This document shows positions 21,922-41,963 of a stretch of 64,000 bases of DNA, in pieces; position 1 is the first letter of the stretch; each line of letters starts with the position of its first letter. Source of the stretch: Pseudosulfitobacter pseudonitzschiae (GTDB lineage Bacteria; Pseudomonadota; Alphaproteobacteria; Rhodobacterales; Rhodobacteraceae); assembly GCF_900129395.1 (NCBI RefSeq), contig NZ_FQVP01000001.1, forward strand, positions 806,001 to 870,000, read 5' to 3'. The translations under genes were made by a program, and so were the position numbers. The notes beneath the pieces are model-generated. The model was not told where the DNA came from. It saw nothing but the letters and a program-made list of their open reading frames with translations, and did no database searches.

Positions 21922-21993
21922 GCAAAGCACTCCTGTAACGATGGCGGATCAGGGTGGCGGACCGGGCGCAACACGCGCCCGGCCCTGATGGCG

Positions 21994-23544: not shown

Positions 23545-23608
23545 CATGTTCTCCAGGGTTCGGTTGCAATCTGAGTTCGGCCGCTTGGGACGCGGCTCTT
23601 CGGGGTTG

Positions 23609-24481
23609 TTATCGGTCGCGCAGACGGACATCGGCGCGGTCGCGCAGCCAGTCGCCCATGATCTGCACGGAAAAGGTCAGCGCCACGATCAGCGCGGCAG
23701 GCACCAGCACGATCCACGGCGCGGTCGGCATATAGTCGCGCCCCAGCCCCACCATCGACCCAAGCGACGGCTGCGGCGGCTGCACGCCAAGGCCCAAAAA
23801 GCTAAGCGTGCTTTCCAGGATCACGATGTTGGACAGCGCCAGCGTGAACTGCACCACAAGCGGCGAGACGAGGTTGGGCAGCACATGGCGGCAAGCGATG
23901 TAGACCGGCCCTGCCCCGGCGGTCCACGCCGCCTCGATGAACGGCAGCGCCGACAGGCGGCGCACCTCGGCGCGCACGATGCGGGCGTATTGTTCCCATC
24001 CGGCGATGCCCAGAACCAGCACCAGCACGGTCAGGTTCGACCCCAGCAGCGACAGGATCAACAGCGCCACCAGCGTAAAGGGAATGGCGATCTGCATGTC
24101 GACCAGCGCCATGATCCCGTCCTCAACCCAGCCACGGCGCAGTCCGGCCACCAGCCCCAGCGTGCCGCCGATCAGCAACCCGATCAGCGCACCGGCAAAG
24201 GCCAGCGTCAGCGTCAGCCGCATCCCGTACAAGCTGCGCGACAGCACATCGCGGCCCAGCTCGTCTGTGCCCGCGTAATGGCCCGCAGCGAACCGTTCGA
24301 ACCCCAGCGGCGGCCGCAGGCGGCTCAGCAGGCTTTGATCCAGCGGGCCAAAGGGCACGATCCACGGCGCAAACACCGCCAGCGCGAACAGCAGGATGGC
24401 AATGCCGATGGCAATCTTCTGGATGAAATCGGTGCTGCCTTTGCGGCGCGGGGCGATGACGGGATCTGCGAGCGTTGTCAT
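23609..24481 (-). CDS. Dipeptide-type ABC transporter permease, DppC type
   Basis: 290 residues with about six membrane segments, an N-terminal DppC/OppC domain (FAPWIVPFGPLDQSLL) and the cytoplasmic coupling loop EAAWTAGAGPVYIACRHVLPNLVSPLVVQ. GTDELGRDVLSRSLYGMRLTL is characteristic. It pairs with the DppB-type protein encoded 12 bp upstream and is followed by the binding-protein gene after 64 bp. Confidence 0.93.
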   Translation of the reverse strand: MTTLADPVIAPRRKGSTDFIQKIAIGIAILLFALAVFAPWIVPFGPLDQSLLSRLRPPLGFERFAAGHYAGTDELGRDVLSRSLYGMRLTLTLAFAGALIGLLIGGTLGLVAGLRRGWVEDGIMALVDMQIAIPFTLVALLILSLLGSNLTVLVLVLGIAGWEQYARIVRAEVRRLSALPFIEAAWTAGAGPVYIACRHVLPNLVSPLVVQFTLALSNIVILESTLSFLGLGVQPPQPSLGSMVGLGRDYMPTAPWIVLVPAALIVALTFSVQIMGDWLRDRADVRLRDR

Positions 24482-24493
24482 GATACGGGCTCC

Positions 24494-25420
24494 TTAACTG
24501 CGGGCCAGTCGGATGCGCGGGTCAGCCAGCGCATAGGACACGTCCGTTAGGGCGTTGATGGCGACGACAGCGACGGCCACGGTGATCACGCCGAACTGCA
24601 AGACGGGGTAGTCCCGCACCAGCGCCGCGTTCACCAAAAGCTGTCCGATGCCCGGCCAGGAAAAGATGCTTTCGACCACCACGCTGCCCGCCGCCGCCAG
24701 CCCCGCAACTTGCAGGCCGATCACCGAAATGACGGTGACACCGGCGTTGCCCAGCCCATGGCGCAGCACCACGCGTGCCTCGCCCAGCCCCTTGGCCCGT
24801 GCGGTGCGGATGAAATCCTGCCCCAGCACGTCCAGCATGGCGTTGCGGGTAAACCGCGTCAGTGCGGCAATCAGCACGCCGGACATGGCGATGGTCGGCA
24901 TGATGAAATGGGCAAAACTGCCGTTGCCCACCACCGGCAACCAGTTCAGCCAGTAGGAAAAGACCAGCACCATCACGATGGCCAGAATGAACGACGGCAC
25001 CGCATAGCCTGCAAAGGCCACCATCATAACCGCTGAGCCGATCCAGCTTTTGCGATAGATCGCGCCCAGTATCCCCAGCGGGATCGCCACCAGCAAGGTG
25101 AACGCGACCGAGGCCAGCAACAACTGCCCCGAAGCCCACAGCCGGTCGCTGACCACTTCGGTCACGGGGCGCCGGTCGACAAAGCTTAGTCCGAACTCGC
25201 CGGATACGGCACCGCGCATAAAGGCCAGGTATTGCTGCCACAACGAACCATCCAGCTGGAAATACCGGATCAGCTCGGCGCGGCCCTCTTCGGTCAGCCC
25301 GTCGCCCAGAAAGGTGTCGATCGGGTTGCCAGACAGGCGGGTGGCGATAAAGGTGATCGTGGCGATGGCAAATAGCGTCACCACCGATTTCACCGCGACA
25401 CGGATCAGATAGGGGATCAT
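24494..25420 (-). CDS. Dipeptide-type ABC transporter permease, DppB type
   Basis: 308 residues, starting MIPYLIRVAVKSVVTLFAIATITF. FLGDGLTEEGRAELIRYF and the loop TRFTRNAMLDVLGQDFIRTARAKGLGEARVVLRHGLGNAGVTV mark the DppB family. The ATG at 25420 overlaps the HAD gene stop (ATGA), which makes it the natural start although the frame is open 56 codons further. Second gene of the operon. Confidence 0.93.
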   Translation of the reverse strand: MIPYLIRVAVKSVVTLFAIATITFIATRLSGNPIDTFLGDGLTEEGRAELIRYFQLDGSLWQQYLAFMRGAVSGEFGLSFVDRRPVTEVVSDRLWASGQLLLASVAFTLLVAIPLGILGAIYRKSWIGSAVMMVAFAGYAVPSFILAIVMVLVFSYWLNWLPVVGNGSFAHFIMPTIAMSGVLIAALTRFTRNAMLDVLGQDFIRTARAKGLGEARVVLRHGLGNAGVTVISVIGLQVAGLAAAGSVVVESIFSWPGIGQLLVNAALVRDYPVLQFGVITVAVAVVAINALTDVSYALADPRIRLARS

Positions 25421-26172
25421 TGGATGATGCTCCTTTGGATGTGGACAAAGGGCATGTTCAGGGCTGCGGCGGCGGCCCCGTCGGTCAGGACATTGTCCCC
25501 GACAAAGACAGCGTCCTGCGCGGACACACCGCTGCGCGTCAGTGCCATGGTCAGCATCATCGGGTCGGGTTTGCCCAGACTGCGCCATTCCAATTCCGGT
25601 TGGATCGCCCGCAATGCCGCCAGCAATGCGCCGGTTTCCGCGACGGGCTGGGTGTCATGTCCGGGGTGCGACAGGTCTTCGTTCGACACCCACAGCGGTG
25701 CGCCCTGCCCGACCTGCGTCAGGATCGGCCCCATGGTCTCCACCGTCACACCGGCGTCGCGGCACAGTAGCACCGCCTGCGGTGCGTCGGCTGCGGGGTC
25801 GATGCCCAGCTCAACTGCGCGGGCGATCAACGCGGCGCTGGCAAACACACGGGCGCGGCGGATGCCTTCGACATGGGCCAGATGTTCCAGCATCGTCTCG
25901 CCGGCCAGCAAGATGCGCGCTGCCGGTACCGCAATGCCGAAACCCGCCAGTTGCCGCGACATCGCGCGCGCGGTGCTGTCCGAGGCGTTCGACACGATCC
26001 ATAGACGGTCGCCGCAGGCCGCCACGAATTCCGCCGTTTCGGCAAACGGGCGTCCTTGGGCAATCAAGCAACCGTCCAGATCGCACAGCACCAGACGCGC
26101 ATCCGCAACGGCGCGCGCGTCCAGTCGTGTGTACCGATGGGCCACCGGATAATGTGTCGTCGCAACGTCCAA
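25417..26172 (-). CDS. HAD-IIA family phosphatase (NagD-like)
   Basis: 251 residues. HAD motif I is LCDLDGCLI (nucleophile Asp in DLDG), motif II lies in LWIVSNASDS, and motif III/IV in LGKPDPMMLTMALTRSGV followed by VGDNVLTDGAAAAALNM. This is the NagD/PGP type (cap C2), which dephosphorylates small sugar or glycerol phosphates and nucleotides. The start is a TTG at 26172 with GGGAG 8 bases upstream; no suitable ATG exists nearby. It is the first gene of the six-gene operon and is coupled to the permease by an ATGA overlap. Confidence 0.85.
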   Translation of the reverse strand: MDVATTHYPVAHRYTRLDARAVADARLVLCDLDGCLIAQGRPFAETAEFVAACGDRLWIVSNASDSTARAMSRQLAGFGIAVPAARILLAGETMLEHLAHVEGIRRARVFASAALIARAVELGIDPAADAPQAVLLCRDAGVTVETMGPILTQVGQGAPLWVSNEDLSHPGHDTQPVAETGALLAALRAIQPELEWRSLGKPDPMMLTMALTRSGVSAQDAVFVGDNVLTDGAAAAALNMPFVHIQRSIIQ

Positions 26173-26306: not shown

Positions 26307-27194
26307 ATGAGCCTCAGCACCGCCCGTCTGAACGCCATCCGGGCCGTGGCCGAAGGCGGATCTTACGCAGCCGCTGCCCGTCTTTTGGGCGTGACACAGC
26401 CCAATATCTCTGCCCAAGTGCGTGCTTTGGAAGCAGAATTCGGCCTGCGCCTGTTCTTGCGGGAATCAGGGCAGCTGCGCCCGACGGCGCTGTGCCTGAA
26501 ACTGTGCGATCTGGCCGAACGCGCCGCCGAAGCGCAGGACGAGGCAGAGCGTTTGTTGCGCAGCCGGTCATCCTTGCGCGAAGGGCGCATTGCCATCGGC
26601 TTGGGCAATGCGATGCCGGGCATGGCAGTGATTGCCGCCTTTCACCGCGCCTTTCCGGGGGTGACGCTGGATGTGGAAACCGGATCACACCAGAAAATCG
26701 CGCGCGCCGTGCTGACCCATGAATGCGACATCGGCGTGCTGCCGGATGTCCCGGCCGATCCCCGCTTTCGCCGTGAACATCTGGCCTCTTCCGAAGTGAT
26801 CGCCATCGCGCCCGCCGATCATCCGCTGGCGCAGGCGTCCGAAGTGACCGCCGCCGATCTGTCGCGCGTGCCGCTGATCTTTCGCGCCAGCGGTTCATCC
26901 ACGCAGCGGGCGGTGGAGCGGATGTTTGCCCGTGCCAACCTGACCCCGCAACCGTTCCTGACGCTGGACGCCCGCGACGGGTTGTACGAAGCTGTCGTGA
27001 ATGGGCTGGGCGTGGGGTTCATGTGGCGTGCCAGCACCGGCCGCAGCGATGGTGTGGCGCGGCTGCCCATTGTCGAGATGCGCGGTCTGGCCACCCATGA
27101 AACGGTGTTCAGCCTGAAGGACACCCAGAACCAGATCGTTGACGCCTTTTACGGCATCGCCAAAGCGCACGAGGTCGCAACGCGCGACGGCTAG
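26307..27194 (+). CDS. LysR family transcriptional regulator
   Basis: 295 residues. The winged helix-turn-helix at 1-60 (LNAIRAVAEGGSYAAAARLLGVTQPNISAQVRALE) is followed by the LysR effector-binding domain at about 88-290. It is divergent from the phosphatase/ABC operon, the classic arrangement for a LysR activator of its neighbour. It has some resemblance, from memory only, to the group of LysR proteins linked with aminoethylphosphonate catabolism; this would fit the phosphatase genes but needs a profile comparison. Confidence 0.9.
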   Translation: MSLSTARLNAIRAVAEGGSYAAAARLLGVTQPNISAQVRALEAEFGLRLFLRESGQLRPTALCLKLCDLAERAAEAQDEAERLLRSRSSLREGRIAIGLGNAMPGMAVIAAFHRAFPGVTLDVETGSHQKIARAVLTHECDIGVLPDVPADPRFRREHLASSEVIAIAPADHPLAQASEVTAADLSRVPLIFRASGSSTQRAVERMFARANLTPQPFLTLDARDGLYEAVVNGLGVGFMWRASTGRSDGVARLPIVEMRGLATHETVFSLKDTQNQIVDAFYGIAKAHEVATRDG

Positions 27195-27199
27195 GTGGG

Positions 27200-29512
<2,313 letters not shown>

Positions 29513-29734
29513 GTCGGGGAATCCTCTGAGTGTCGGACGCCTGTGATAGCGCCACGCGCCTCCGCCGCCAAGCCACGCTGGCGGTTTTGCGCTGTGACTT
29601 GGCTGGATGAACGGCGCGGCAAATGACGGATCAAAAAGGCCACCGCCTTTGTCAGATTTCAAAGGTGCGCGCCAGCAAGGCACCATTGCGGCCTGACACC
29701 GGCAGGCCGACGATCAAAGGCATAGATCCTGCGC

Positions 29735-31408
29735 CTACCCACCCAAATCCACGGGACCGTGTTCGGCATAGGCGTCTCCGGGTCCGGGATTGGAAGGATG
29801 CGAATGACCACCCAGATGGGTCATCACGCCCCAGACTGCATTCAGGGCCGTTTGCACCGCCCCTTCGACCCAGGCGGGCGTCCAGCTGATGCCGTCGCCC
29901 GCGAGGAACAGGCCGCGTTGTTCGGGTGGCATCCCGGATTGCTCGAAATGCCCGTACATGCGGTAGTTATAGCGGTAATGCCCCGGCAGCGCGCCCTTGA
30001 ACGCGCCGAGGAAATTCTCGTCGCTTTCCCAGCTGACCGTAATGGGGTTGCCGATGATATGCTGGGTGATGTCCACCTTGGGATAGATCTTGCGCAGCGC
30101 GTCCAGCGCCAGATCGACCCGCTTCTCAACCGGCAGCGGTTCCATCTTCAGCGCGTCTGACATCCACGAATAGGTCAGGCACATCACCGCAGGCGCGTTT
30201 GGCCCATCTTCGAACAGATAGGTGCCACGGGTCATACGGTCGGTCAGTGTCACGCTCATCACCTCGCGTCCCGTCTCGGGATCGCGGTCGCGCCAGAACG
30301 GGCGGTCAACCATCACGAAAGTTTTCGACGACTGCATGTAACGGGTGCGGTCCAGCGCCATCCACATATCCTGCGCCAGCAGCCGTTCCTCGAAATCCAT
30401 CGACGTGGTCATCAGCCAGCTTTGGCAGGTGCTGATCAGCGCGTCGAATGTCTCGACACGGCCCCAGCGGTCGGTCACTTCGAATGGGCCATCGTCACCC
30501 TGCTTGCGCACTTTCACCACGCCCGGCCGGGTCGATCCGCCGTGCAGTTTCTCCAGCGTCATGCCCTCGGGCCAGTGGACCATCTTCTCGGGGCTGCGGG
30601 TCCACAGGCCGCGCGGCACCTGTTCGACGCCGCCAACCATATAGTGTTGATCGTCGTCCAGCCCCAGCAAGTTCACCCGCAGGATTTCCAGCATCGAGTT
30701 CGGAAAATCGCTGTCCCATCCGCCGGTGCCGAACCCGACCTGCCCAAAAACTTCGCGGTGCCGGAAGGACAGCTTTTTGAACGCATCCGACGAGGCGATG
30801 AAATCGTAAAAGCTGCGGTCGTCCCAGGCCTGTGCGATAGGGTTCCACAGTTCCTTGACCAGCGCGGCATCGCGGGCCTTGATCGCCGCTTGCAAGGCGC
30901 CGAACTGGGCGTGATCCTCCAGCGCCTGCTGATAGGCGGCCCCGACCTCGCGGAACAGCGGCGGCAGATCGTCGATGGTTTCGGCATAAAGCGTCTCGCC
31001 CGCCAGGTCGATCACGGTTGATCCTGCGGCCTTCGTCAGCGGGTTCGGAAAGGGGCGCGTTTCGATCCCCAGCATATCGACATAGTGATAAAAGGCAGTG
31101 GACGAGAGCGGAAAGCGCATCCCGCCCAGTTCGGCGATGGCATTGGTGGTGCCCTCAAAGCTTTGGCTGCGCAGCCGTCCGCCGAATTGGCCGGATTCAA
31201 AGACGACGGGGCGCAGGCCCAGCTTCATCAGCTCATAGGCGCAAATGACCCCTGAAATGCCGGCACCGATGATCCCCACCGTGCGCCCGTGGCTTTCGGC
31301 GGGCACCGCACCCAAGCCTGCGGGATTGGTGATCCAGTCGTCAAAGGCAAAGGTAAAGTCGGGGCCAAAGGCGGTGACATAGGGTTGGGGTCTGGGGTCA
31401 GATGTCAT
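29735..31408 (-). CDS. davB: L-lysine 2-monooxygenase (flavin amine oxidase)
   Basis: 557 residues, FAD enzyme converting L-lysine plus O2 to 5-aminovaleramide, CO2 and water. The dinucleotide motif GIIGAGISGVICAYELMKLGLRPVVFES starts near residue 42. ELGGMRFP, FGQVGFGTGGWDSDFPNSMLEI, WMALDRTRYMQSSKTFVMVDRPFW and FLGAFKGALPGHYRYN closely match Pseudomonas putida DavB as I recall it. It overlaps the davA stop by 11 bp. The near relative tryptophan 2-monooxygenase (IaaM) is the main alternative, but the davA-type partner and the length favour lysine. The 220 bp downstream before tex hold nothing recognisable. Confidence 0.85.
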   Translation of the reverse strand: MTSDPRPQPYVTAFGPDFTFAFDDWITNPAGLGAVPAESHGRTVGIIGAGISGVICAYELMKLGLRPVVFESGQFGGRLRSQSFEGTTNAIAELGGMRFPLSSTAFYHYVDMLGIETRPFPNPLTKAAGSTVIDLAGETLYAETIDDLPPLFREVGAAYQQALEDHAQFGALQAAIKARDAALVKELWNPIAQAWDDRSFYDFIASSDAFKKLSFRHREVFGQVGFGTGGWDSDFPNSMLEILRVNLLGLDDDQHYMVGGVEQVPRGLWTRSPEKMVHWPEGMTLEKLHGGSTRPGVVKVRKQGDDGPFEVTDRWGRVETFDALISTCQSWLMTTSMDFEERLLAQDMWMALDRTRYMQSSKTFVMVDRPFWRDRDPETGREVMSVTLTDRMTRGTYLFEDGPNAPAVMCLTYSWMSDALKMEPLPVEKRVDLALDALRKIYPKVDITQHIIGNPITVSWESDENFLGAFKGALPGHYRYNYRMYGHFEQSGMPPEQRGLFLAGDGISWTPAWVEGAVQTALNAVWGVMTHLGGHSHPSNPGPGDAYAEHGPVDLGG

Positions 31409-32213
31409 CGCGGGCAGTTCCAATCTTGGTGTAAATCTCGGGGCGACGGTCGTGCAGATAGCGCACGGCTTGGCGCGTGCGCGCAATCTCGGCCCGGTCA
31501 AGATCGGCCACGATCAGCCCCGGCCCGCGCCCTGCCCGCGCAACATCGCGGCCATCGGGCGCGCAAACGCAGGACAGGCCGCAATAGTCGAAATCACCTT
31601 CGCTGCCGCAATAGTTGGCATAGACCACGAAAAGCCCGTTTTCCTCGGCCCGTGCGGGGACCAGCCGCGTGGCGACACTGTCATATGGGATCATGTTGGC
31701 GGTGGGTGTCAGCACCAAATCGGCCCCGTCCAGCGCATAGGCGCGGGTCAATTCGGGAAACTCTATGTCGTAACAAATTGCCAGTGCGATCCGCCAGCCG
31801 TTCCACGCCACCACCGGCGCGCGGGCATGGCCCGCCTGAAACTGCGCGCGGTCCACATCGCCGTAAAGATGGGTCTTGCGGTAGTGCGCGATGCGCGCCC
31901 CCGCCGCGTCGATCATTTGCACGGCGTTAAAAGGGGCACCACCCCGTGGGTCAGCCTGCGGGTAGCCATAGAGGATCGCCAGCCCGTGACGGCGGGCAAT
32001 GTCTGCCACCTGTGCGGCGTCGGGTCCATCGGCTGGCTGCGCCAGTTCCAGAACACGGGCTGCGCCGATGTTATAGCCGGTCAGATACATCTCGGGCGTG
32101 ACAAGCAGATCGCAACCTGCAGACCTGGCCTGTGCTGCGTAACCGTCCAATTGCTCAAGACAATGCGCCACGCCCGACGATGCCGGAGCAATTTGCATAC
32201 ATGCTATTTTCAC
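31398..32213 (-). CDS. davA: 5-aminopentanamidase (nitrilase superfamily)
   Basis: 271 residues. The nitrilase triad is complete: Glu41 in TPEMYLTGYNIG, Lys113 in YRKTHLYGD and Cys147 in ALAICYDIEFPE. It hydrolyses 5-aminovaleramide, the DavB product, to 5-aminovalerate and ammonia. The sequences around PTANMIPYD and VYANYCGSE match P. putida DavA as I recall it. The start is GTG at 32213 with an ideal AGGAGG 5 bases upstream. Only 46 bp separate it from the M81 peptidase gene, so both dav genes could be the end of the long peptide-uptake operon. Confidence 0.87.
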   Translation of the reverse strand: MKIACMQIAPASSGVAHCLEQLDGYAAQARSAGCDLLVTPEMYLTGYNIGAARVLELAQPADGPDAAQVADIARRHGLAILYGYPQADPRGGAPFNAVQMIDAAGARIAHYRKTHLYGDVDRAQFQAGHARAPVVAWNGWRIALAICYDIEFPELTRAYALDGADLVLTPTANMIPYDSVATRLVPARAEENGLFVVYANYCGSEGDFDYCGLSCVCAPDGRDVARAGRGPGLIVADLDRAEIARTRQAVRYLHDRRPEIYTKIGTARDDI

Positions 32214-32259
32214 CCAAGCCTCCTGTGTCTGCCCTGCCCTGCGGGCTCACCAAGTTCTG

Positions 32260-33765
32260 CTACATTCGTGCCTCTGCATCCAGCGGCCAAATGGGGCGGC
32301 GCACCTTGACGTAGGGGCGTCGGCTCATCTGCGGCGTGGACAGCGCGCCGCTGTCGCACACAATCACCTTGCCCGCAATCGGCTCGAACGCGGCGCGAAA
32401 GTGCTGCATGGACTTCACCGCAACGACCGACTTCTGCTCGGGCTGGATGCCGAATGTCTTGAACTGTTGCAGGTCCAGCATCTGATCCCGTTCCGTGGTC
32501 ACCAGAATGTCGATGCCGTCCACCCGCAGAACCGCCGTGGGGCCAAAGCTGCGGCGCAACCCGCCCAGCATCGGCCCATCGCCGGTCAGCCAGCCGTCCG
32601 AAATGTGCATGATCGTTCCCGTCAGCGTCAACGGCCCGCCGCCAAAGGCCGGATCGTTCTTGCCGCCCAAGTCCAGCGTTACCGTGTCGCCAACCGTTCG
32701 GGCGCACAGCATGGCGGCGGCGTCGGGGTCGATCATGGGGGCAAAGGTCGCGTTTTTCAGCCCGGCGTCCAGCATGGCAGCCAGCAGGTTGGTCGCATCG
32801 CCATAGGCACCCGATCCGGGGTTGTCGGCATAATCCGCGATCACCAGCGGCCCCTTGGACGTGTCGAACGACATGGCGACCGCACAGGCCTCTTCCACGC
32901 TCAGGAAATCGTTTGCAATGCTGTTACGGGCAGCCCAGATCTCGCCTGCGATCTGCTGTGAAATCGCGTGGGCGCGCGCCTCGGCACCATCGGTGTTGGC
33001 ATCATAGGTCACCAGAACGGTCGGGCCCATGTCGTGAATATCCGCATCGCTAAAGCCTGCGTTGATCGACACGCAGTGAATGCCCTTTTCAGTCTCGTGG
33101 TCCAGTGCACGCGCATATAGCGGGACAATCGGGCCGACATCGGTGCGCCCGCCGTTAGGATCGTCCAGCATCGGACAAGCCACGCGACAGGTTTTTGGGC
33201 GGCTTTTGCCCGCCATCGCGGCCTCGAGAATACGGCCCGCCTGTTGCCCGCGCTCGCGCAGGTCGATGTGCGGGTACGTCTTGTAGGACACGATGATATT
33301 GGCCAGTTCCGCCATCTGCGGGGTGACGTTGCAATGCAGGTCCAGCGTGGTGGCGATGGGCATGTCCGGCCCCACGATGTCGCGCAGGCGCTGCAACAGC
33401 TCGCCCTCGCCGTCCTCGCAGAACTCGGTGACCATGGCCCCGTGCATCGCCAGCAGGATGCCGTCCAATGTGTCCTTGTGTTGTTCTACCGCGGCGCAAA
33501 TCTTGCCTGCAACATGCTCGAATGCGTGCCGCGACACCTTGGACCCCGGCACGGCATAGGCCGAAATCACATGGGTCAGGTCCCAGCCCGCTTCGTCGGC
33601 CACATCCGTGAACCCCGACAGACCGGTGTTGCCGTCGGACAGACGCGCCAACGCCTCGTCACCTTCCATCAACGCATCAACCTCAAAGTTGTGCAGCTCG
33701 GTCAGGCCCTTTTTGAACGTGTTGCTTTCATGAAGAAATTCGGCAGTGAGGACATGGTGCGTCAT
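32260..33765 (-). CDS. M81 family metallopeptidase (MlrC-like)
   Basis: 501 residues: an N-terminal DUF1485/MlrC domain to about 290 and an MlrC C-terminal domain after it. Likely zinc ligands are Asp142 and His144 (ATTLDLHCNVTP) and His166 (KTYPHIDLRERG), with Glu9 in TAEFLHES as further active-site residue. MlrC of Sphingomonas degrades linearised microcystin and its tetrapeptide; most relatives have no known substrate. No signal peptide, so it acts on imported material. It is 3 bp from the OppF-type gene and clearly part of the transporter operon. Confidence 0.88.
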   Translation of the reverse strand: MTHHVLTAEFLHESNTFKKGLTELHNFEVDALMEGDEALARLSDGNTGLSGFTDVADEAGWDLTHVISAYAVPGSKVSRHAFEHVAGKICAAVEQHKDTLDGILLAMHGAMVTEFCEDGEGELLQRLRDIVGPDMPIATTLDLHCNVTPQMAELANIIVSYKTYPHIDLRERGQQAGRILEAAMAGKSRPKTCRVACPMLDDPNGGRTDVGPIVPLYARALDHETEKGIHCVSINAGFSDADIHDMGPTVLVTYDANTDGAEARAHAISQQIAGEIWAARNSIANDFLSVEEACAVAMSFDTSKGPLVIADYADNPGSGAYGDATNLLAAMLDAGLKNATFAPMIDPDAAAMLCARTVGDTVTLDLGGKNDPAFGGGPLTLTGTIMHISDGWLTGDGPMLGGLRRSFGPTAVLRVDGIDILVTTERDQMLDLQQFKTFGIQPEQKSVVAVKSMQHFRAAFEPIAGKVIVCDSGALSTPQMSRRPYVKVRRPIWPLDAEARM

Positions 33766-33768
33766 GGG

Positions 33769-34719
33769 TTATCCTTGGATCGGGTGAAAACAGGCGACGG
33801 GGTGCGGTCCGCGGCTCAGCACGGGAACCGTTTCGCGGCACTTGGCCGTGACATTTGGACAGCGCCCGGCAAAGGCGCAGCCGCGCGGCAGGTCGAAACC
33901 GCTGGGGATCTCGCCGGTCAGCTCGGTGGCCTCCTGACGGGCGTTTGGATTGGGGGCAAAGGTGCTGGCCATCAGCGCGCGGGTGTAAGGATGGCGCGGC
34001 GCGGCGCCGGGATCGGGCAATTCCTCGACCACTGCGCCCAGATACATCACCACGATGCGATTGCAGAAATAGCGGACCAGCCCAAGGTCATGGCTGATGA
34101 ACAGGTAAGTCAGGTCCAGATTGCGCTGCAACTCCTGGATCAACGACACGATCTGCGCCTGAATAGACACGTCCAGCGACGCCGTCGGCTCGTCCAGCAC
34201 GATAAAATCCGGGTTCAGCGCGAGGGCCCGCGCGATGCCGACCCGCTGGCGTTGCCCGCCTGACAACTGGTGCGGATAGCTTTGCGTCAATGACGCAGGC
34301 AGTCCGACCTTTTCCATCAGCGCGTCAATGCGACCGTGCGGCACCCGCTGGCCTTGCACCACAAAAGGTTCCGCCAGCGCATCTGCCACCCGATACCGCG
34401 GATCAAGCGAGGAATAAGGGTCTTGGAACACCATCGCCATCCGCTGACGCATCTTGCGCAACTCGGACCGGCTGAGCTGCGTCAGGTCGGCGCCTTCAAA
34501 GCAGACAGCACCTTCGGTCGGCTCGATCAGCCGCAACACCAGACGGGCCAGCGTGGACTTGCCACACCCGCTTTCACCGACCACGCCGACGATGTCACCA
34601 CGTGCAATCGACAGTGACACATCGCGCACTGCCAACATGCTGCGCCGTTTTTTCAGGAACCCGCCGGGGGTGTCGAACCGCTTGGACAGGGACTGGATCT
34701 TGACAAGAGGTTCAGACAT
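33769..34719 (-). CDS. Peptide-type ABC transporter ATP-binding protein, OppF type
   Basis: 316 residues. Walker [10 protein letters not shown], signature [15 protein letters not shown] and Walker [13 protein letters not shown] are followed by the OppF C-terminal region with the cysteine-rich stretch [16 protein letters not shown]. It is the second ATPase of the importer. Its start overlaps the OppD-type stop by 8 bp, and the M81 gene follows after 3 bp. Confidence 0.93.
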
Positions 34720-35677
34720 CCGGCGCTCCGTTCAGGGGATAATGGCAGGCGACCGTGCCCGCGTCGGACAGGCCACGCTGAACAGGAACCTTCGTGTCGC
34801 AACCTGCCCCCGCGCGCGGGCATCGGGGGTGAAACCGGCAGCCCGAAGGATAGGCCGTGGCCGAGGCCACGTTGCCGGGAATGCCAGTCAGCGATCCGGG
34901 TGCCATGCCCTCGCGGGGGATGCAGTCGATCAGTGCGGCTGAATAGGGATGCTGCGGGCTGGCAAACAGCGCATGCACCGGCTTTTGCTCGGCCAGCCGG
35001 CCCGCATAGAGCACCGCCACCTTGTCACAGGCCTGTGCCACGACGCCCATGTCGTGCGTGATCAGCACCAGCGACAGACCACGTTCGCGCACCAGGCGGG
35101 TCAGCAGATGGATGATCTGCGCCTGAACCGTGACATCCAGCGCCGTCGTCGGCTCGTCCGCGACGATCAGGTCGGGATCGCCTGCCAATGCCATCGCAAT
35201 GACGATGCGTTGCTTCATGCCGCCCGACAACTGGTGCGGATAGGACGAACAGATGGCGTCGGCCTGCGGAATGCGCAGTTGGGTCAACAGCGCAATGGTG
35301 CGCGCCCGCGCCGCCTTGCGGTCCAGCCCCAGGTGCGTGCGCGACACGAAATCGACCTGTGGACCAATGCGCTGCACAGGGTCCAGTGCTGTCATCGGGT
35401 TTTGGGTGATAAAGGCGATCCGGCGTCCGCGCAGGGCCCGCAGCTTGCGCTTGGGCTGGGTGACCATGTCGGTGCCGTCGAATTCAAGCGACCCTGCGGT
35501 GACGCGCCCGCCAATCAGCGGCAGCAAGCCGGTCAGCGCAAGTGCCGTCAGCGATTTGCCCGATCCGCTTTCGCCAACCAGCCCCATGATCTCGCCCTTG
35601 GCCAGATCAAAGCTGACACCTTCCAGCAGGGTCAGTGTGCCGATGCTCACCGACAGGTTTTTGACACGCAGCAACAT
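34712..35677 (-). CDS. Peptide-type ABC transporter ATP-binding protein, OppD type
   Basis: 321 residues. Walker [11 protein letters not shown], signature [15 protein letters not shown], Walker [13 protein letters not shown], and a C-terminal oligopeptide-transporter extension with [15 protein letters not shown], likely an Fe-S or structural cysteine set as known for OppD/DppD proteins. The start is the ATG sharing one base with the OppC-type stop; the frame runs 54 codons further up without similarity. Confidence 0.93.
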
Positions 35678-36540
35678 CAGCTTTCCCGCACACGCGCGCG
35701 CACGTCCAGCGCATGGATCAGCGCATCGCCGAACAGGTTGATCGCAAAGACGGTCACGGCCACGGCCACCCCCGGAATAATGATGATCCACGGCGCCTTG
35801 AACATATGTGCCGTGCCCGACGACATCAGCCCGCCCCAACTGGGCGTCGGAGGCTGCGCGCCCAGACCGAAGAACCCCAGCGTCGCTTCGAGGATGATCG
35901 CGTCACCCGTGGCCAGCATCGCGGCGACAATCACCGGTGCCAGCGCGTTCGGCAGCAGATGACGCATCAGGATATGACCGTGACTGGCCCCCAAAGACAG
36001 CGATGCCTCGACAAAAGTTTCGGATTTGATCGCCATGATCTGCGACCGCGTCAGTCGCGTGAACAGCGCCAGATAGGCAACGCCGATGGCGACCATCGCC
36101 CCCGTGACACCGGGGCCGATGATGGCCACCAGAATAAGCGCCACCAGAATTTCGGGGAACGACCACGTCAGGTCGATCACCGCAGTCACGGCCCGGTCAA
36201 ACCGCCCACCGAAGTATCCGGACGCCGCCCCCAGGCACATGCCGCAAAACACAGAGATGCCAATCGCAATCGTCGACACGCTCAGCGAGGTCCGCGCGCC
36301 ATACATGATGCGCGTCAGCATATCGCGGCCGAATTCGTCGGTGCCCAGCCAATGCGCCGCATCCGGTGCTCGGAACGCGTTGGGCAGGTCCTGAATGTCG
36401 TATTCATAAGGTGTCAGGTACGGCGCAAAGACCGCAACGAACACCACCAGTATCAGCCAGGTGCCTGCGATCACGCCCTTGGGGCGGCGCATGACGCGGC
36501 CCAATGTGGTGTCGGACAATTTCACTACAGCCACCCCCAT
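35677..36540 (-). CDS. Peptide-type ABC transporter permease, OppC type
   Basis: 287 residues with about six membrane segments. The DppC/OppC N-terminal domain (LPNAFRAPDAAHWLGTDEFGRDMLTRIMYGARTSL) and the loop SETFVEASLSLGASHGHILMRHLLPNALAPVIV are present. The ATG at 36540 shares a base with the OppB-type stop; a GTG one codon upstream is equally possible. It pairs with the OppB-type permease. Confidence 0.92.
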   Translation of the reverse strand: MGVAVVKLSDTTLGRVMRRPKGVIAGTWLILVVFVAVFAPYLTPYEYDIQDLPNAFRAPDAAHWLGTDEFGRDMLTRIMYGARTSLSVSTIAIGISVFCGMCLGAASGYFGGRFDRAVTAVIDLTWSFPEILVALILVAIIGPGVTGAMVAIGVAYLALFTRLTRSQIMAIKSETFVEASLSLGASHGHILMRHLLPNALAPVIVAAMLATGDAIILEATLGFFGLGAQPPTPSWGGLMSSGTAHMFKAPWIIIIPGVAVAVTVFAINLFGDALIHALDVRARVRES

Positions 36541-37463
36541 CACAATGCCGCCCTGACGCGCGGGTCCATGGCCGCCTGGATAAGGTCGCCCGCCAAGGTG
36601 CCCAGCATCACCGCCATCGCAAGGATCAGCAGACAGGCCTGAACCACAGGATAATCATGCTGGTTTAGTGATTTGATCAGCAGCGTGCCCAGACCGGGAC
36701 GGGCAAAGACCACCTCGACCGTGACCGCGCCGCCCAGGATCCAGCCAATGCGCAGCGACAGGATGGTGACCACAGGAATAAGCGCGTGCCGCAGCACATG
36801 GCGCAACTGGATGCGCGCGGGGCGCATCCCCTTGGCGTGCAAAAGCATTAGGAAATCGCGCTGGCCCGCCTCGACCATCGCCACGCGGGTCACCCGGGCA
36901 ACCAGTGCAGTGCCGCCCAGACCCACGGTCAGAACCGGCAGAACCATCGCCGACCAGTCGCGCGCGCCTGACACCGGGAACATGCCCAGCCAGACGGAAA
37001 ACACCAGGATCAGCAAAAGACCCAGCCAGAATCCCGGAACGGTTGAGCCAAGCAGCACAACCGTCATGATCAGCTGGTCGGGCCAACGGTCACGGGTCAG
37101 CGCCGCGATCGTGCCCAGAACAATCCCGAAAAAGGTCGAGAACGCCAGCGCACACAGTCCCAGCGCCAGAGAATGCGGCAAGGCCTGGGCGATCAGGTCG
37201 GCCACTGGCCTGCGGGCGACGATGGCCGTGCCGAGATCACCTTGAAGGACACCGCTGAGCCAGATCCAGTATTGCACCACCAGCGGCTTGTCCAAGCCAT
37301 AGCGCGCGGTCATGATCTCGCGCTGTTCGGGGCCGGCACCGATCTTCAGAAGGTTGTCGATCGGATCGCCCGGTATCAGGTGGATGATCGAAAAGATCAC
37401 CGCCGACACCGCAAGGAAAACGGGGATCAGAACCAGCACCCGCCTGATAAAATAACCCAACAT
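36540..37463 (-). CDS. Peptide-type ABC transporter permease, OppB type
   Basis: 307 residues starting MLGYFIRRVLVLIPVFLAVSAVIFSI, the typical DppB/OppB opening. LIPGDPIDNLLKIGAGPEQREIMTARYGLDKPLVVQYW and the loop TRVAMVEAGQRDFLMLLHAKGMRPARIQLRHVLRHALIPVVTI define the family. It starts 20 bp after the binding-protein gene, with no terminator hairpin in the gap. Confidence 0.93.
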   Translation of the reverse strand: MLGYFIRRVLVLIPVFLAVSAVIFSIIHLIPGDPIDNLLKIGAGPEQREIMTARYGLDKPLVVQYWIWLSGVLQGDLGTAIVARRPVADLIAQALPHSLALGLCALAFSTFFGIVLGTIAALTRDRWPDQLIMTVVLLGSTVPGFWLGLLLILVFSVWLGMFPVSGARDWSAMVLPVLTVGLGGTALVARVTRVAMVEAGQRDFLMLLHAKGMRPARIQLRHVLRHALIPVVTILSLRIGWILGGAVTVEVVFARPGLGTLLIKSLNQHDYPVVQACLLILAMAVMLGTLAGDLIQAAMDPRVRAAL

Positions 37464-37483
37464 GTCTGATCCCCGCCTGACGC

Positions 37484-39052
37484 TTATTCGACCGGAGCCA
37501 TGTCCATCAGCACGGTCGACCCGATGCCCGGCGCGTCAAACACTTCGGGCATGGAGATCCGCGAGGTGTTGTACGCGACACTGACAACAGGCTGGTAAAT
37601 CGGGGCCACCGGAAACTGCGAAAGGACGTATTCGTGATAGGCGGTAAAGTTCGCGATCCGCTCGTCCGAGCTTTTTGATCCGGTCATGGCCGCAGCGCGC
37701 AGGTCTTCGGCCTTTGGGTCGTTGAACATCGAGATGTTCGGATAGCCCAGCCGGTCACCACCAAAGAACCAGTCCACGATATCGGCGTTGTCCCAGACAT
37801 AGGACCGCACGGCGACCTGCTGTTCACCGGATTTGTACTGGTCGCGGATCATGGCGCTGTCAAAGGTGCCGATCTCGGCGCTGATGCCCACGGCTTTCAG
37901 TTGCGCCTGCACAACTTCCGACAGACGACGGAACACGCTGTCGCTTTGGGTCCACAACGACACCTTTAGCGGCTGGCCGTCCTTCATGCGCACGCCATCC
38001 GCGCCCATGGTCCAACCGGCCTCGTCCAGCAGGGCGTTGGCCTTGTCGGGGTTGAACGCGATGCGATATTCGTCGGCCACTTTCGCCTCGGGCAATGCCG
38101 AGATCAGGAAGGTGTCTGCCACCTGTCCGATACCACCATAGATGTTGTCCAGAATTTCCTGCTGGTTGATGGCAAGGGCCGCGGCCTCGCGCACCTTGAT
38201 GTCGTTGAACGGTTCTTTGACCACGTTCATGACCATGTAGACCAGCTCGCGCCCTGGAACACTGACCAGCTTCAGGTCGCTTTGTTTTTCAACCTCGGGA
38301 ACGAAATCGGCAGGGACCGACAGCAGCATATCGACACCGCCGGTTTTCAGCTCGAGAAACGCGGTCGAGGCTTCGGCGATCTCGCGGAATGTCAGGTGTT
38401 CGAACTTGGCCGGGCCTGTGTTCTTGGCCACGGGCGAGCCCCAGGTGTAATCGTCGTTGCGCACCAGAACGGTTTGCTGGCCGATGTCAAAGCTTTCCAG
38501 CTTGTAGGGCCCTGTGCCAATGGTTTCGGTCACGCCAAAATTCTCGCCCATGGCGACAAAGGATTTGGGTTCGGGCACACCCATGATGGCAAGGTTGTAC
38601 AGCAGGTTCGGTTCGGGATGTTTCATCACGAACTTCACGGTGTATTCATCCACAACCTGAATGCTGTCGATGGCCGCAGTATAATAGGCGTTGTCGGTGC
38701 CGTCATACAGCGGCAGCCAGTCCGCGATGGTTTGCGCATTGAAGGGCACACCGTTGTGGAAGGTCACCCCTTGTTTCAGGTGGAACACCCACGACATGCC
38801 GTCCTCGGCCTCTTCCCAGCTTTCGGCCAGATGCGGATGGTAGTTGCGCGCGGCGTCCACCTCGACCAGCCGGTCGAAGATAAGAAAGGCGGCGGCATTC
38901 GTCAGAATGGCTGTTACGGGGTTATAGCTTGTCAGACCGACCGTGTTGGACGGCAAAACAATCGTAGCCTCCTGCGCAAAGACGACAGGGGCCATCGCAT
39001 TCATCGACGCGATGGACACGCTTGCAGCCAGCAAATGTTTGTTGAACTTCAT
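37484..39052 (-). CDS. Peptide-type ABC transporter substrate-binding protein (family 5)
   Basis: 522 residues. Signal peptide MKFNKHLLAASVSIASMNAMAPVVFA is followed by the SBP family 5 fold (LAESWEEAEDGMSWVFHLKQGVTFHNGVPFNAQTIADWL, GTGPYKLESFDIGQQTVLVRNDDY, VREAAALAINQQEIL). It binds the ligand in the periplasm for the OppBCDF-type importer. The regulator gene lies 36 bp upstream in the same direction, so regulator, binding protein and transporter are probably one transcript. Substrate not directly readable; the catabolic genes of the cluster point to lysine- or D-residue-containing peptides. Confidence 0.92.
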   Translation of the reverse strand: MKFNKHLLAASVSIASMNAMAPVVFAQEATIVLPSNTVGLTSYNPVTAILTNAAAFLIFDRLVEVDAARNYHPHLAESWEEAEDGMSWVFHLKQGVTFHNGVPFNAQTIADWLPLYDGTDNAYYTAAIDSIQVVDEYTVKFVMKHPEPNLLYNLAIMGVPEPKSFVAMGENFGVTETIGTGPYKLESFDIGQQTVLVRNDDYTWGSPVAKNTGPAKFEHLTFREIAEASTAFLELKTGGVDMLLSVPADFVPEVEKQSDLKLVSVPGRELVYMVMNVVKEPFNDIKVREAAALAINQQEILDNIYGGIGQVADTFLISALPEAKVADEYRIAFNPDKANALLDEAGWTMGADGVRMKDGQPLKVSLWTQSDSVFRRLSEVVQAQLKAVGISAEIGTFDSAMIRDQYKSGEQQVAVRSYVWDNADIVDWFFGGDRLGYPNISMFNDPKAEDLRAAAMTGSKSSDERIANFTAYHEYVLSQFPVAPIYQPVVSVAYNTSRISMPEVFDAPGIGSTVLMDMAPVE

Positions 39053-39088
39053 GGTAATTATACCTTCCCTATGGTGGCGCTTTTTTGA

Positions 39089-39988
39089 TTATTTTTTGCT
39101 TGTGTCAGACCGCGCGCCGAGGTGGCCGACAAAGGTGTTGTAGCCTGCAGAAATCGCGGCCATCCGCTCTTCGACATCTGCGCCCAGTTCGTTGAACACA
39201 CCGTTCACCGTCAGGCTGATCAGGCTGGAAATGGGTGCCGTGTTGTCCCAGAACAGGTTCAGTTCGGTCGGCACGGCAAAGGTTTCATCCGCCAGCCCTG
39301 CGTCCCACGTGCAGTAAGGATCGGTGATCAACGACACTTTCACGCCGCGCTCCTTGGCCGCGCGGGCCAGCTTTTCGGCCATGCGGGAATATTTGCGCCC
39401 GTCGATGACGACCAGGCAGGACTGCGCAGGATCGCCCTGCAACAGCTCGGAAAACGTGCCGCCCTCTTGGTCGGCCAGCCAGACACCGGGGCGCAGGTAT
39501 TGCAATCCATTGGCCAGATACTGGGCCTGACCGCGCTCTGCCTGAAACCCTGCGACAAAGACCTGCGGCGTACGCGCCAGCCGTTTGACCATGGCTTCAA
39601 ACGGCTTGCTGCCCGCCATTTCGTAAACCGCGACAAGGGCCGCAATCTCAAGCTCCAGCGCACGACTCAACTCGGCGCCCCCACTGCGGGACCGTGCATG
39701 AAAGTCTTTCAGCCGGTCGCCGATCAACCACGCGCTGTCGCCCAGGTCGGCCTGAAGCCGCGATTTCAGCTCTTTGAAGCTGTCCAGCCCGATGCTGCGG
39801 CAATAGCGCCCGACACTGGCCTCAGACACGCCGATCTTGGTCGCGAGGGTCGAGGCAGTCTCGAAAGGAAGCGTTTTGATGTTGGTCATCATGTAGCTTG
39901 CAATGGCTTTTTCGCCTTTGGTCGCACCCTCGACGCTGTCAGCCAGCAACTGCTGAACGCTGACCGAAATATTGTCTGGATGTGCCAA
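39089..39988 (-). CDS. MurR/RpiR family transcriptional regulator
   Basis: 299 residues. An N-terminal HTH_6 domain (KGEKAIASYMMTNIKTLPFETASTLATKIGVSEASVGRYCRSIG) precedes a C-terminal SIS domain at about 125-260 that would bind a small phosphorylated or sugar-like effector. The frame is open to an ATG at 40042, but that ATG lies inside a palindrome likely to be the operator and has no ribosome site. A TTG at 39988 is preceded by AGGGGG at 7 bases and gives the usual N-terminal length, so it is preferred. It leads the transporter operon and is divergent from the racemase gene. Confidence 0.85.
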   Translation of the reverse strand: MAHPDNISVSVQQLLADSVEGATKGEKAIASYMMTNIKTLPFETASTLATKIGVSEASVGRYCRSIGLDSFKELKSRLQADLGDSAWLIGDRLKDFHARSRSGGAELSRALELEIAALVAVYEMAGSKPFEAMVKRLARTPQVFVAGFQAERGQAQYLANGLQYLRPGVWLADQEGGTFSELLQGDPAQSCLVVIDGRKYSRMAEKLARAAKERGVKVSLITDPYCTWDAGLADETFAVPTELNLFWDNTAPISSLISLTVNGVFNELGADVEERMAAISAGYNTFVGHLGARSDTSKK

Positions 39989-40025
39989 AGCGCCGCCCCC
40001 TGAAACTCTCTCTTGAGACCTCAAA

Positions 40026-40049
40026 TGACAGAAAGCTTTCATAATGTCA
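40026..40049. promoter_or_regulatory. Composite palindrome, candidate RpiR operator
   Basis: TGACA (40026-40030) and TGTCA (40045-40049) bracket a perfect 10-bp palindrome GAAAGCTTTC (40031-40040). The element lies in the divergent control region, 38 bp from the racemase-gene TTG-side counterpart and 65 bp upstream of the racemase ATG. Its position suits simultaneous control of both arms of the cluster. Confidence 0.5.
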
Positions 40050-40113
40050 ATCTTGCAATATTTATGTCTCTGAACTACAGGTGATCCAACCTAGCCAAAC
40101 CAAAGGGTTCGAC

Positions 40114-41250
40114 ATGCCGGACATTTCCAGACAGACCCGCGCGCCGCTGACGATAGACCGGGCAGAATTGCGGCTTGTCCGATTGCCGTTGTTGCAGCCT
40201 TTCGTAATCTCGACCGGCACGATGCATGACCGCATTTTCCCGCTGCTGACGCTCTATTCAGGCGATCACGAGGGATATGCCGAAGGGGTGATGGACCCCC
40301 TGCCCGACTATCTTGGCGAAACGCTGCCCGCCGCGATGGCGCTGCTCAAGGACCTGTTCCTGCCGATGATCGTCGGAAAATCCTTTGAAAACCCTGCGGC
40401 GCTGGACAAGCTTCTGGCCCCGTGGCGCGGCCATCAAATGACAAAGGCGACGGTCGACATGGCGTTTTGGGACCTGTGGGCCAAGTCGCTGAACCTGCCG
40501 CTGCAAACCGTTTTGGGCGGGACCGGAGATGCAATTGACGCAGGCGTTTCTTTGGGGATCGGCTCTATCGACGACACGGTCGCCCGCGTGGCCGATCACC
40601 ACCGGCAAGGTTACAAACGGATCAAGCTCAAGATCAAACCGGGGCACGACGTGGCGCTGGTCCGTGCGGTGCGCGCGGCCTTTCCCGATATCCGGCTGAG
40701 CGTGGACGCCAACGCCTGTTACACGCTGGCCGACGCGGGCCTGCTGCAGAAACTGGACGATCTGGCATTGGATTACATCGAACAACCGCTGGCATGGGAT
40801 GACATTCAGGACCACGCGGTGCTGCAGAAACGGCTGAAAACGCCGATCTGCCTGGACGAATGCATCAACTCGGTGCGCGCCTGCCGCCAGGCGCTTCAGG
40901 CCGACGCCGCACGGGTGATCAACATCAAGGTGGCGCGGTCGGGTGGATATTACACGGCGCTGAAAATGCACGATCTTGCGGCGGCCTTTGACGTGCCTGT
41001 CTGGTGCGGCGGCATGCTGGAATCAGGCATCGGGCGTGCGCACAACATCCACCTGTCGACCTTGCCGAACTTTACCAAACCGGGCGATGTCTCCAGCGCC
41101 AGCCGCTATTTTGCGCGTGACATCATCAACGAACCGCTCGAAGCAACCGACGGACGGATGGCGGTGCCCCAAGGCGCAGGCATCGGCGTGTCGCTGGATG
41201 AAAGTTTTCTGTCAGAAATGGCCCTTTCCAGTGAAAGCTTTTCCGCATGA
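40114..41250 (+). CDS. N-acylamino-acid (N-succinylamino-acid) racemase, enolase superfamily
   Basis: 378 residues of the MLE subgroup. The acid-base lysines are Lys173 (in KLKIKPGHD) and Lys272 (in INIKVARSGGY), with metal ligands Asp198 (SVDAN), Glu223 (YIEQPL) and Asp248 (CLDEC). WCGGMLESGIGRAHNIHLSTLPNFTKPGDVSS matches the OSBS/NAAAR C-terminus. o-Succinylbenzoate synthase is the alternative, but no menaquinone gene is near and a GNAT gene is translationally coupled, the context described for N-succinylamino-acid racemase in the D-to-L amino acid pathway. ATG at 40114 follows AAAGGG; a GTG at 40081 is less likely. Confidence 0.82.
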   Translation: MPDISRQTRAPLTIDRAELRLVRLPLLQPFVISTGTMHDRIFPLLTLYSGDHEGYAEGVMDPLPDYLGETLPAAMALLKDLFLPMIVGKSFENPAALDKLLAPWRGHQMTKATVDMAFWDLWAKSLNLPLQTVLGGTGDAIDAGVSLGIGSIDDTVARVADHHRQGYKRIKLKIKPGHDVALVRAVRAAFPDIRLSVDANACYTLADAGLLQKLDDLALDYIEQPLAWDDIQDHAVLQKRLKTPICLDECINSVRACRQALQADAARVINIKVARSGGYYTALKMHDLAAAFDVPVWCGGMLESGIGRAHNIHLSTLPNFTKPGDVSSASRYFARDIINEPLEATDGRMAVPQGAGIGVSLDESFLSEMALSSESFSA

Positions 41251-41963
41251 CACCGCCGGTGATCCGCGAATTGTCCGGCGTGGCAGAGTTCACCGCGGCT
41301 GAAGCCCTGCAACGTGCGGTCTGGGGACCGGATGATCTGGTCGATCCCTATGATCTGATGATGGTGATCCAGCATGAAGGCGGCCTTGTCGCAGGAGCGT
41401 TTTCAGACGACGAACTGGTCGGCTATGTCTTTGGCTTTCCCACGCGCGAACTGCACATCCAGCATTCGCACCGGCTTGCGGTGTTGCCCAAGATGCAGGG
41501 CATGGGACTGGGCGCGCGCCTGAAGTGGTTTCAGCGTGACTGGTGTCTGGCACGCGGCATCACCCACGTGCGCTGGACCTTTGACCCGCTGCGCGCGGCC
41601 AATGCGGCCCTGAACGTGGGCAAGCTGGGCGTGATCGTCGACACCTATATGGCCGACTATTACGGCAAAATGGTGGGTATCAACGCGGGCACCCCCTCTG
41701 ACCGGTTGATGGCAGACTGGTTTCTGGACACCGCACATGTGGCCGACCGCGCGGCACGGATTGCGCAGTCTCCCCCAGATGCAGCACGACGCGTCACCAT
41801 TCCTACGGATTTCGCCGCCCTTCTTGCGTCGGACCCGGCCAAGGCCTTGGCCGAAAGGTTGCGCGTGAGAGAGCAGATTGGCCATGCTTTGAAAGAAGGT
41901 CTTGTTATCAATGGGTTTGTCGCGGACCAGTCTTGCTATATTTTCGCGAAACCTGCTGCATGA
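41247..41963 (+). CDS. GNAT acyltransferase, probable D-amino-acid N-succinyltransferase
   Basis: 238 residues. The first 150 carry a GNAT fold like COG3375, with LVGYVFGFPTRELHIQHSHRLAVLPKMQGMGLGARLKWFQRDWCLARGITHVRWTFDPLRAANAALNVGKLG; the acyl-CoA loop is the QGMGLGARLK segment. In Geobacillus a GNAT protein succinylates D-amino acids before N-succinylamino-acid racemase acts; the ATGA overlap with the racemase gene suggests the same partnership here. The C-terminal 70 residues are helical and of unknown role. Donor (succinyl- versus acetyl-CoA) is not determinable from sequence. Confidence 0.75.
   Translation: MTPPVIRELSGVAEFTAAEALQRAVWGPDDLVDPYDLMMVIQHEGGLVAGAFSDDELVGYVFGFPTRELHIQHSHRLAVLPKMQGMGLGARLKWFQRDWCLARGITHVRWTFDPLRAANAALNVGKLGVIVDTYMADYYGKMVGINAGTPSDRLMADWFLDTAHVADRAARIAQSPPDAARRVTIPTDFAALLASDPAKALAERLRVREQIGHALKEGLVINGFVADQSCYIFAKPAA

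Follow-up and report, generated by a model that had tools for sequence, protein, structure and literature searches.

We analyzed a 64,000-nucleotide stretch of Pseudosulfitobacter pseudonitzschiae DNA (contig NZ_FQVP01000001.1, positions 806,001 to 870,000 of the forward strand; here called the window, with coordinates counted from its first nucleotide), whose closest relatives belong to the Pseudosulfitobacter group. The subject is a divergent block of eleven genes at 29735-41963, in which a regulator, an Opp-type ABC transporter, an M81 hydrolase, and a davAB pair face an N-acyl(succinyl)amino-acid racemase (NSAR, or NAAAR) and a GNAT acyltransferase; an earlier reading of the DNA (the original prediction) had taken them for a single pathway of peptide import, inversion of D-residues, and lysine degradation. 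The core module, made up of the regulator, transporter, M81 hydrolase, NSAR, and GNAT, is real and conserved; comparison with related units supports a D-residue function for it, and the davAB pair, judging from its distribution, is a genus-level addition to it.

Gene content of the locus

All eleven open reading frames were found in the open reading frame list and translations at the coordinates and in the order and strands originally claimed, with intergenic gaps of -11 to +46 bp, and profile and structure-database matches agreed with each of the eleven identities. The minus strand carries, reading away from the divergent center, an RpiR-family regulator (39089-40042; PF01418, HTH_6; 176 bits against the SapR-like model NF046014, cut-off 500), a family 5 substrate-binding protein (SBP_bac_5, 37484-39052) whose nearest named families are NikA-like and score below cut-off, the permeases OppB (36540-37463) and OppC (35677-36543) and the ATPases OppD (34712-35677) and OppF (33769-34719), all four assigned by profile searches, an M81 (MlrC-like) metallopeptidase (32260-33765; PF07364 and PF07171), a davA-like nitrilase-superfamily amidase (31398-32213; PF00795, CN_hydrolase, E = 2.4e-48; top PDB amidase 5jqn), and a davB-like FAD-dependent L-lysine oxidase/monooxygenase (29735-31408; matched along almost its entire length to PDB 3we0, the enzyme of Pseudomonas sp. 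AIU 813, E = 6.7e-268). The plus strand carries NSAR (40114-41250) and, beside it, the GNAT acyltransferase (41247-41963; PF00583). On one side the block is flanked by Tex (27200-29686), on the other by an Mrp antiporter operon that was recognized by eye (from 42369 on).

Several start sites were revised. The oppD gene starts at 35677, and davB most likely starts at the ATG at 31408 rather than at 31501, which leaves an 11-bp overlap with davA. The longest NSAR frame opens at 40081, but the gene probably starts at the ATG at 40114, because the RefSeq homolog in another P. pseudonitzschiae record is called as 378 amino acids; since that 378-amino-acid frame is open, the stop codons flagged in the homolog match must fall 5' of the homolog's start. 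For rpiR, the start is probably 39988 or 39949, as an operator-like site at 40026-40065 (described below) runs over the listed start at 40042.

NSAR residues K182, K184, D209, E234, D259, K283, and R286 are invariant in eight aligned sequences including that of the window; we take K182, K184, and K283 to be the KxK motif and second catalytic lysine, and D209, E234, and D259 to be the metal-binding acids. The catalytic lysine pair of NSAR/NAAAR enzymes is also given in an excerpt of PMC8142540. The closest structure match was the Deinococcus NAAAR (PDB 2ggg, E = 1.3e-127). Automatic annotation points elsewhere: homologs are labeled menC in PLSDB and RefSeq records, and TIGR01928, which the protein passes with 312 bits against a cut-off of 200.65, bears the name o-succinylbenzoate synthase. 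That identity is very improbable, given that NSAR is paired with GNAT in nearly all the loci compared below and that the genome has no MenD over cut-off (five weak matches, the best with 68.9 against 244.2 bits; MenD, the sole men gene searched, passed this cut-off in 7 of 14 control genomes), and we dropped the menC reading because of the MenD result.

In the M81 protein, E13, H108, D142, H144, and H166 are invariant in ten aligned sequences including the window's, and by eye they correspond to E56, H150, D184, H186, and H208 of MlrC, which an excerpt of PMC12474180 describes as zinc-binding or catalytic. The protein scores below the cut-off of the MlrC model (207 bits versus 999).

A conserved core unit

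The named-genome scan kept the best 80 of 227 NSAR relatives. The whole core, counted by scoring GNAT, RpiR, the binding protein, OppB, and M81, with OppC, OppD, and OppF seen in the gene listing, was present at 36 of these 80 loci, so that its arrangement is not due to chance; GNAT lay within 600 bp of NSAR at 76 of them, as it does in the window. Five further kept loci had Opp genes without M81, four of them ending at a contig edge and one (L084) truly lacking it. Rhodobacterales and Hyphomicrobiales both conserve the core, with hosts that include Rhodobacter, Tabrizicola, Gemmobacter, Rhizobium, Mesorhizobium, and Ciceribacter.

The picture was similar in a sample of 394 family genomes that takes one from each genus. 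A close NSAR homolog occurred in 16 genera, and in nine of these it adjoined RpiR, binding-protein, and Opp genes, followed in eight by M81; the contig of the ninth (G542) ends first. The other seven genera have NSAR-GNAT in different settings, two of them on cut-short contigs (G777 and G710). Judged by eye, the flanks beyond M81 and beyond GNAT vary across nine loci, indicating that the unit ends at these two genes. The proposal that transporter, M81, NSAR, and GNAT belong together is supported both by this conserved unit and by the operator-like site between its arms.

Two Pseudochrobactrum loci (L142, P. algeriensis; L154, Pseudochrobactrum sp. XF203) have NSAR with no GNAT annotated, next to Opp, gamma-glutamyltransferase, and M20 peptidase genes; these loci may import N-acyl or gamma-glutamyl compounds that are already formed.

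An operator-like site between the divergent arms

A 40-base sequence with the consensus TGACAGAAAACTTTCATTCGGTCAATCTTGCAAGAAAACT was found in 55 of 58 rpiR/NSAR spacers (57 named loci and the window; the same sequences trained the motif model). It occurs once in the window, at 40026-40065 (plus strand), with a score of 34.7 under a model built without the window and its closest relative (L057); the next-best place in the 64 kb scored -6.3 and the best of 20 random 20-kb controls -5.2. The most widespread single 8-mer was shared by 32 of the 58 spacers, compared with at most 7 in shuffles (n = 20). Outside the training set, the site was found between the arms or before rpiR in the P. pseudonitzschiae record (29.4) and in Gemmobacter fulvus p2 (56.4). 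Its position and conservation suggest that 40026-40065 is the RpiR operator. With the revised starts, the control region shared by both arms would span some 125 bp or more in place of 38 bp.

Exchange of NSAR-GNAT for DauA-like genes

The M81-centered samples (149 family genomes and 357 class genomes) contained 12 RpiR-SBP-Opp-M81 units with an M81 identity of at least 50%. The divergent position was held by NSAR-GNAT in four of them (G000, G034, G121, and G111) and by a DauA-like D-amino-acid dehydrogenase gene instead in another four (G140, G084, G204, and G316); the DauA-like form also occurs on plasmid P2 of Sulfitobacter mediterraneus. For P2 and G084, the encoded proteins align with the D-arginine dehydrogenase DauA along almost their full length (E = 5.1e-86 and 2.6e-91), while the remaining three genes are tied to the P2 copy by tblastn only. 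Random control loci (n = 20) yielded no DauA-like gene. The exchange strengthens the D-residue reading of the original prediction and appears to be the best evidence for it.

We take E87 and E246 of DauA to be the two carboxylates that bind the side chain of arginine. By eye, the G084 enzyme (L158) has Ser at both positions, so the DauA match would indicate a D-amino acid but not which one; a preference for basic amino acids, drawn from the match, was dropped because both carboxylates are missing in this aligned copy.

Elsewhere, NSAR-GNAT is accompanied by an amino-acid ABC importer in place of Opp (S. mediterraneus P1, S. indolifex, G624, and G114), and M81 was not seen in the visible stretch of these loci, which would fit a need for M81 only where the D-residue is taken up in bound form. 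Together, the exchange and the importer loci suggest that M81 releases a D-amino acid from what has been imported and that NSAR-GNAT or the DauA-like enzyme then processes this amino acid. A Phyllobacterium homolog of M81 (53% identity) lies amid D-ser_dehydrat, S12, and D-amino-acid-dehydrogenase-like genes.

Attachment and chemistry of davAB

Three of the six genomes of the genus have NSAR, and all three have davAB behind M81. The block lies between Tex and Mrp in two of them and on a 428-kb plasmid in the P. pseudonitzschiae record, where the M81-davA gap is 73 bp rather than the 46 bp of the window. Outside the genus, the picture differs. Named units that include M81 number 37 (L124 is rearranged), and in 35 of them the visible sequence continues for 1 kb or more past M81, typically for about 2 kb; davAB is attached in one of these (L057, of the same genus) and in none of the other 34, nor was it found in any of the eight other family-sample units (one with M81 and downstream unseen). 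The outcome that the original prediction had itself named as refuting it, with the two halves rarely found together, thus holds outside the genus, and its placing of davAB in the same single pathway is not supported in that form. We accordingly dropped davAB as a part of the conserved unit, from which it is absent in the other units seen.

Co-occurrence across the 394 genera was slight, with davB in 18, NSAR in 16, and both in 3 against 0.73 expected (P = 0.031); leaving out the window's own genome, two shared genomes remained (P = 0.13), in which NSAR and davB are about 2.7 Mb apart or on separate contigs. A strong-looking co-occurrence in the 149-genus sample (davB in three of four module genomes) was set aside because of this weakness in the larger sample.

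The settings of davB in other genomes are mixed. Among 18 other davB loci, Opp genes occurred in 4 and a D-residue peptidase or dipeptidase (M55, S12/DAP_B, S58, or M19) in 5, compared with none and 1, respectively, of 19 random controls and with neither in any of 17 lone NSAR loci; the comparison leans toward davB, since the peptidase queries were drawn from these davB loci, and the controls came mostly from non-davB-locus genomes, with one (L207) excluded because it held davB by chance. Of six annotated plasmid loci outside the genus, that of S. alexandrii has davB behind an Opp system, along with an Asp/Glu racemase-family gene; that of Sulfitobacter sp. THAF37, the nearest davB by identity, has pca genes on one side and a class III aminotransferase gene on the other; and the other four have no Opp or D-peptidase gene. 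In other places davB stands with glutarate-type genes, for example a GABA transaminase over cut-off (L045) or a CoA-transferase and an acyl-CoA dehydrogenase (L047), which fits lysine catabolism.

The pair might be a chance neighbor, usual L-lysine catabolic genes that in this genus came to lie behind the unit and are expressed on their own. Its absence from the 34 named units, the varied settings of davB in other genera (by itself, next to unrelated Opp systems, or among glutarate-type genes), the position of the THAF37 relative, and the 46- and 73-bp gaps before davA all fit this, whereas the retention of the pair in all three of the genus's genomes with NSAR does not, given that the block occupies two locations, one of them on a plasmid. 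In addition, the motif scan of the 64-kb window found no operator-like site before davA that would be its own, and no sigma-70-like promoter was found on the minus strand there, although that is a weak test, since scanning for promoters and terminators produced no more matches than shuffled sequence. We regard chance neighborhood as improbable, if not strikingly so. A local davAB link is favored by this retention within the genus, but the 394-genus co-occurrence lends it little once the window's own genome is left out. Since davB in other genomes is occasionally found beside different Opp or D-peptidase genes, lysine is plausible as the local product.

With positions equated by eye, all nine lysine-pocket residues, Asp238 included, that an excerpt of PMC5832979 gives for the L-lysine oxidase/monooxygenase of Pseudomonas sp. 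AIU 813 are conserved in the window's DavB. The same excerpt reports that the C254I exchange in that enzyme made monooxygenase activity undetectable and raised oxidase activity fivefold. The window's protein has Leu at position 254, the residue that tunes oxidase versus monooxygenase activity; among 28 aligned sequences Leu, Cys, Gln, or Phe occurs there, with Phe in the closest relatives outside the genus. A split of Cys254 and Leu254 by davB context was tested and dropped, as the four residues are scattered on the tree. The davA-davB overlap makes an amide product and a role for DavA likely. The genome has eleven GABA-T matches, none over the TIGR00700 cut-off, which is strict (3 of 14 control genomes pass). 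The 5-aminovalerate step of the DavBA route is uncertain in view of Leu254 and the GABA-T result.

Three davB-related observations stand apart. In L026 (G046:C2), davB lies downstream of a lysA-like decarboxylase gene (below cut-off and cut by the end of the stretch), with Opp, YkuD, and S12 D-aminopeptidase genes, and the locus looks like murein-peptide catabolism from diaminopimelate through lysine. In L024, one frame (7018-8568) that adjoins davB and M55 fuses L,D-transpeptidase (YkuD) and AstE/AspA desuccinylase-type domains. In genus g187, whose units have no NSAR or DauA-like partner, davB occurs elsewhere in three of four genomes (G415, the source of L207; G190; and G491).

Other genes in the window

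A second Opp-like ABC transporter is encoded on the minus strand at 19418-26172. Pfam identified one permease and a HAD-type hydrolase; an ATPase, a binding protein, a second permease, and a metallophosphoesterase-like gene were recognized by eye. A LysR regulator at 26307-27194 scored below the cut-off of an aminoethylphosphonate-associated family. This transporter possibly serves organophosphate uptake.

Discussion

We lean, by a narrow balance, toward an RpiR-controlled unit for the consumption of small D-amino-acid compounds, most likely short peptides, to which davAB was added in Pseudosulfitobacter. The gene identities, the conserved linkage, the operator-like site between the arms, and the DauA-like exchange are what the sequences offer; from them we infer the reactions, the substrate, the binding of RpiR, and read-through into davAB. 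The Opp-type transporter would import a compound containing a D-residue, and the M81 hydrolase would cut it in the cytoplasm, freeing the D-amino acid. GNAT would then N-acylate, probably N-succinylate, this amino acid, NSAR would invert the N-acyl compound, and an unlinked hydrolase would release the L-amino acid. In Pseudosulfitobacter, whose operon would have gained davAB, L-lysine arising in this way could be oxidized at once by DavB to 5-aminovaleramide, which DavA would convert to 5-aminovalerate, or to a keto acid if the Leu254 form is mainly an oxidase.

Several findings weigh against this reading. The operator-like motif was not found in five DauA-type units (best scores -21.7 to -1.7), so that the DauA exchange rests on gene layout and homology and not on a common site; its scores are low in the four g187 units (-1.3 to 5.1) and spread between -10.8 and 25.5 in five amino-acid-importer NSAR units. 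In four of the 12 M81-centered units, all of genus g187, NSAR-GNAT and DauA-like genes are both lacking alongside. The DauA-like copy of G140 ends at a contig edge and spans two frames, OppB of G204 was matched in part only (39%), and the two Ser residues of the G084 enzyme have been mentioned. In Gemmobacter fulvus p2, no D-amino-acid gene is annotated beside the unit, in a gene table that is incomplete, and the unit L084 does without M81. Among 34 class-sample M81 places (42 to 60% identity overall), 21 show none of the scored themes; eight of these (49 to 56%), inspected by eye, have no clear D-amino-acid theme except L170, which has an alanine-racemase-like gene. An M20 peptidase gene lies within 4 kb of M81 in 6 of the 34 places, at 42 to 46% identity. 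For the final steps, the 34 units without davAB, Leu254, and the GABA-T result count in the same direction.

The six M20-linked homologs are L180, L187, L189, L190, L194, and L198, one of which also has Opp genes and a DauA-like gene.

The compound itself is a further point of doubt, as the nearest named families of the binding protein are nickel and opine carriers: NikA scored highest and the opine carrier CntA also appeared, all below cut-off. The import of an opine-like or metal-binding molecule with a D-residue, instead of a peptide, would also suit the M81 homologs of two Microvirga plasmids (L145 and L146) and of R. leguminosarum (L148), which have neighbors of the ornithine-cyclodeaminase or arginase families together with FAD oxidoreductase and amino-acid importer genes. 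SBP_bac_5, however, is a family that spans many peptide carriers, and NikA-like similarity alone leaves the ligand unfixed; by Pfam, moreover, the core holds no metal or opine enzyme. We consider such a compound decidedly unlikely.

The unit also has no desuccinylase or deacylase gene, and Pfam found no M20- or AstE-type family in 29735-41963. M81 could fill this gap as an N-acyl-L-amino-acid hydrolase that closes the GNAT-NSAR acyl cycle and is not a peptidase, as its link to NSAR-GNAT at 36 of the 80 kept loci would allow. This role is unlikely, because M81 also accompanies DauA-like genes in units that have neither GNAT nor NSAR, and because the NSAR-GNAT units with amino-acid importers show no M81 in their visible stretch. 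Release of a bound D-residue by M81, with inversion or oxidation afterwards, is the function we prefer.

D-Amino acids enter the environment from cell-wall and nonribosomal peptides. How marine and soil bacteria consume them is only partly understood, and the natural roles of M81 and N-acylamino-acid racemases are not firmly established. The unit ties both families to one substrate class, which makes both testable; if the reading is true, the module gives M81 (MlrC-like) hydrolases a natural role, and the replacement of racemization by oxidation within one layout would amount to a natural experiment in how one pathway supplants another. No description of this gene combination was found among the matches listed from titles, abstract beginnings, and open-license PMC text. 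The new element would be the M81-Opp-NSAR-GNAT unit, along with the DauA-like exchange, and not the davAB link. A bolder version, in which this is an undescribed mobile alphaproteobacterial module where M81 frees the D-residues of imported peptides, GNAT-NSAR and DauA-like enzymes are interchangeable, and Pseudosulfitobacter has made of it a dedicated pathway from D-lysine peptides to lysine degradation, is a tentative proposal that in our estimate falls somewhat short of probable.

Five known systems invite comparison. The N-succinylamino-acid racemase pathway of Geobacillus kaustophilus reportedly consists of a GNAT succinyltransferase, NSAR, and a desuccinylase. NSAR and GNAT likewise stand side by side there and are expected to convert D- to L-amino acids via N-acyl intermediates; unlike it, the unit described here couples them to an Opp transporter, M81, and RpiR and includes no desuccinylase. 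The overlapping davA-davB genes and the nine conserved pocket residues resemble Pseudomonas DavBA (lysine 2-monooxygenase and 5-aminovaleramidase), but position 254 is Leu where the AIU 813 enzyme has Cys, a D-residue uptake unit is attached, and the window's genome has no GABA-T over cut-off. Systems with the D-arginine dehydrogenase DauA are resembled through the DauA-like gene that replaces NSAR-GNAT in related units, although this gene is not in the window and the one aligned copy is without both side-chain carboxylates of DauA. Microcystin, too, holds D-residues. The microcystin mlr system shares an M81 enzyme, described in an excerpt of PMC12474180 as cytoplasmic with a peptide substrate; M81 is all they have in common, as an Opp transporter is found here in contrast to MlrD there, and the unit has neither MlrA nor MlrB. 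Finally, the broad-spectrum racemase Alr of Pseudomonas putida, according to an excerpt of PMC6034422, interconverts L- and D-lysine and takes part in amino-acid catabolism; on that account Alr racemizes its substrate directly, whereas the unit described here would reach the same end by an N-acyl route.

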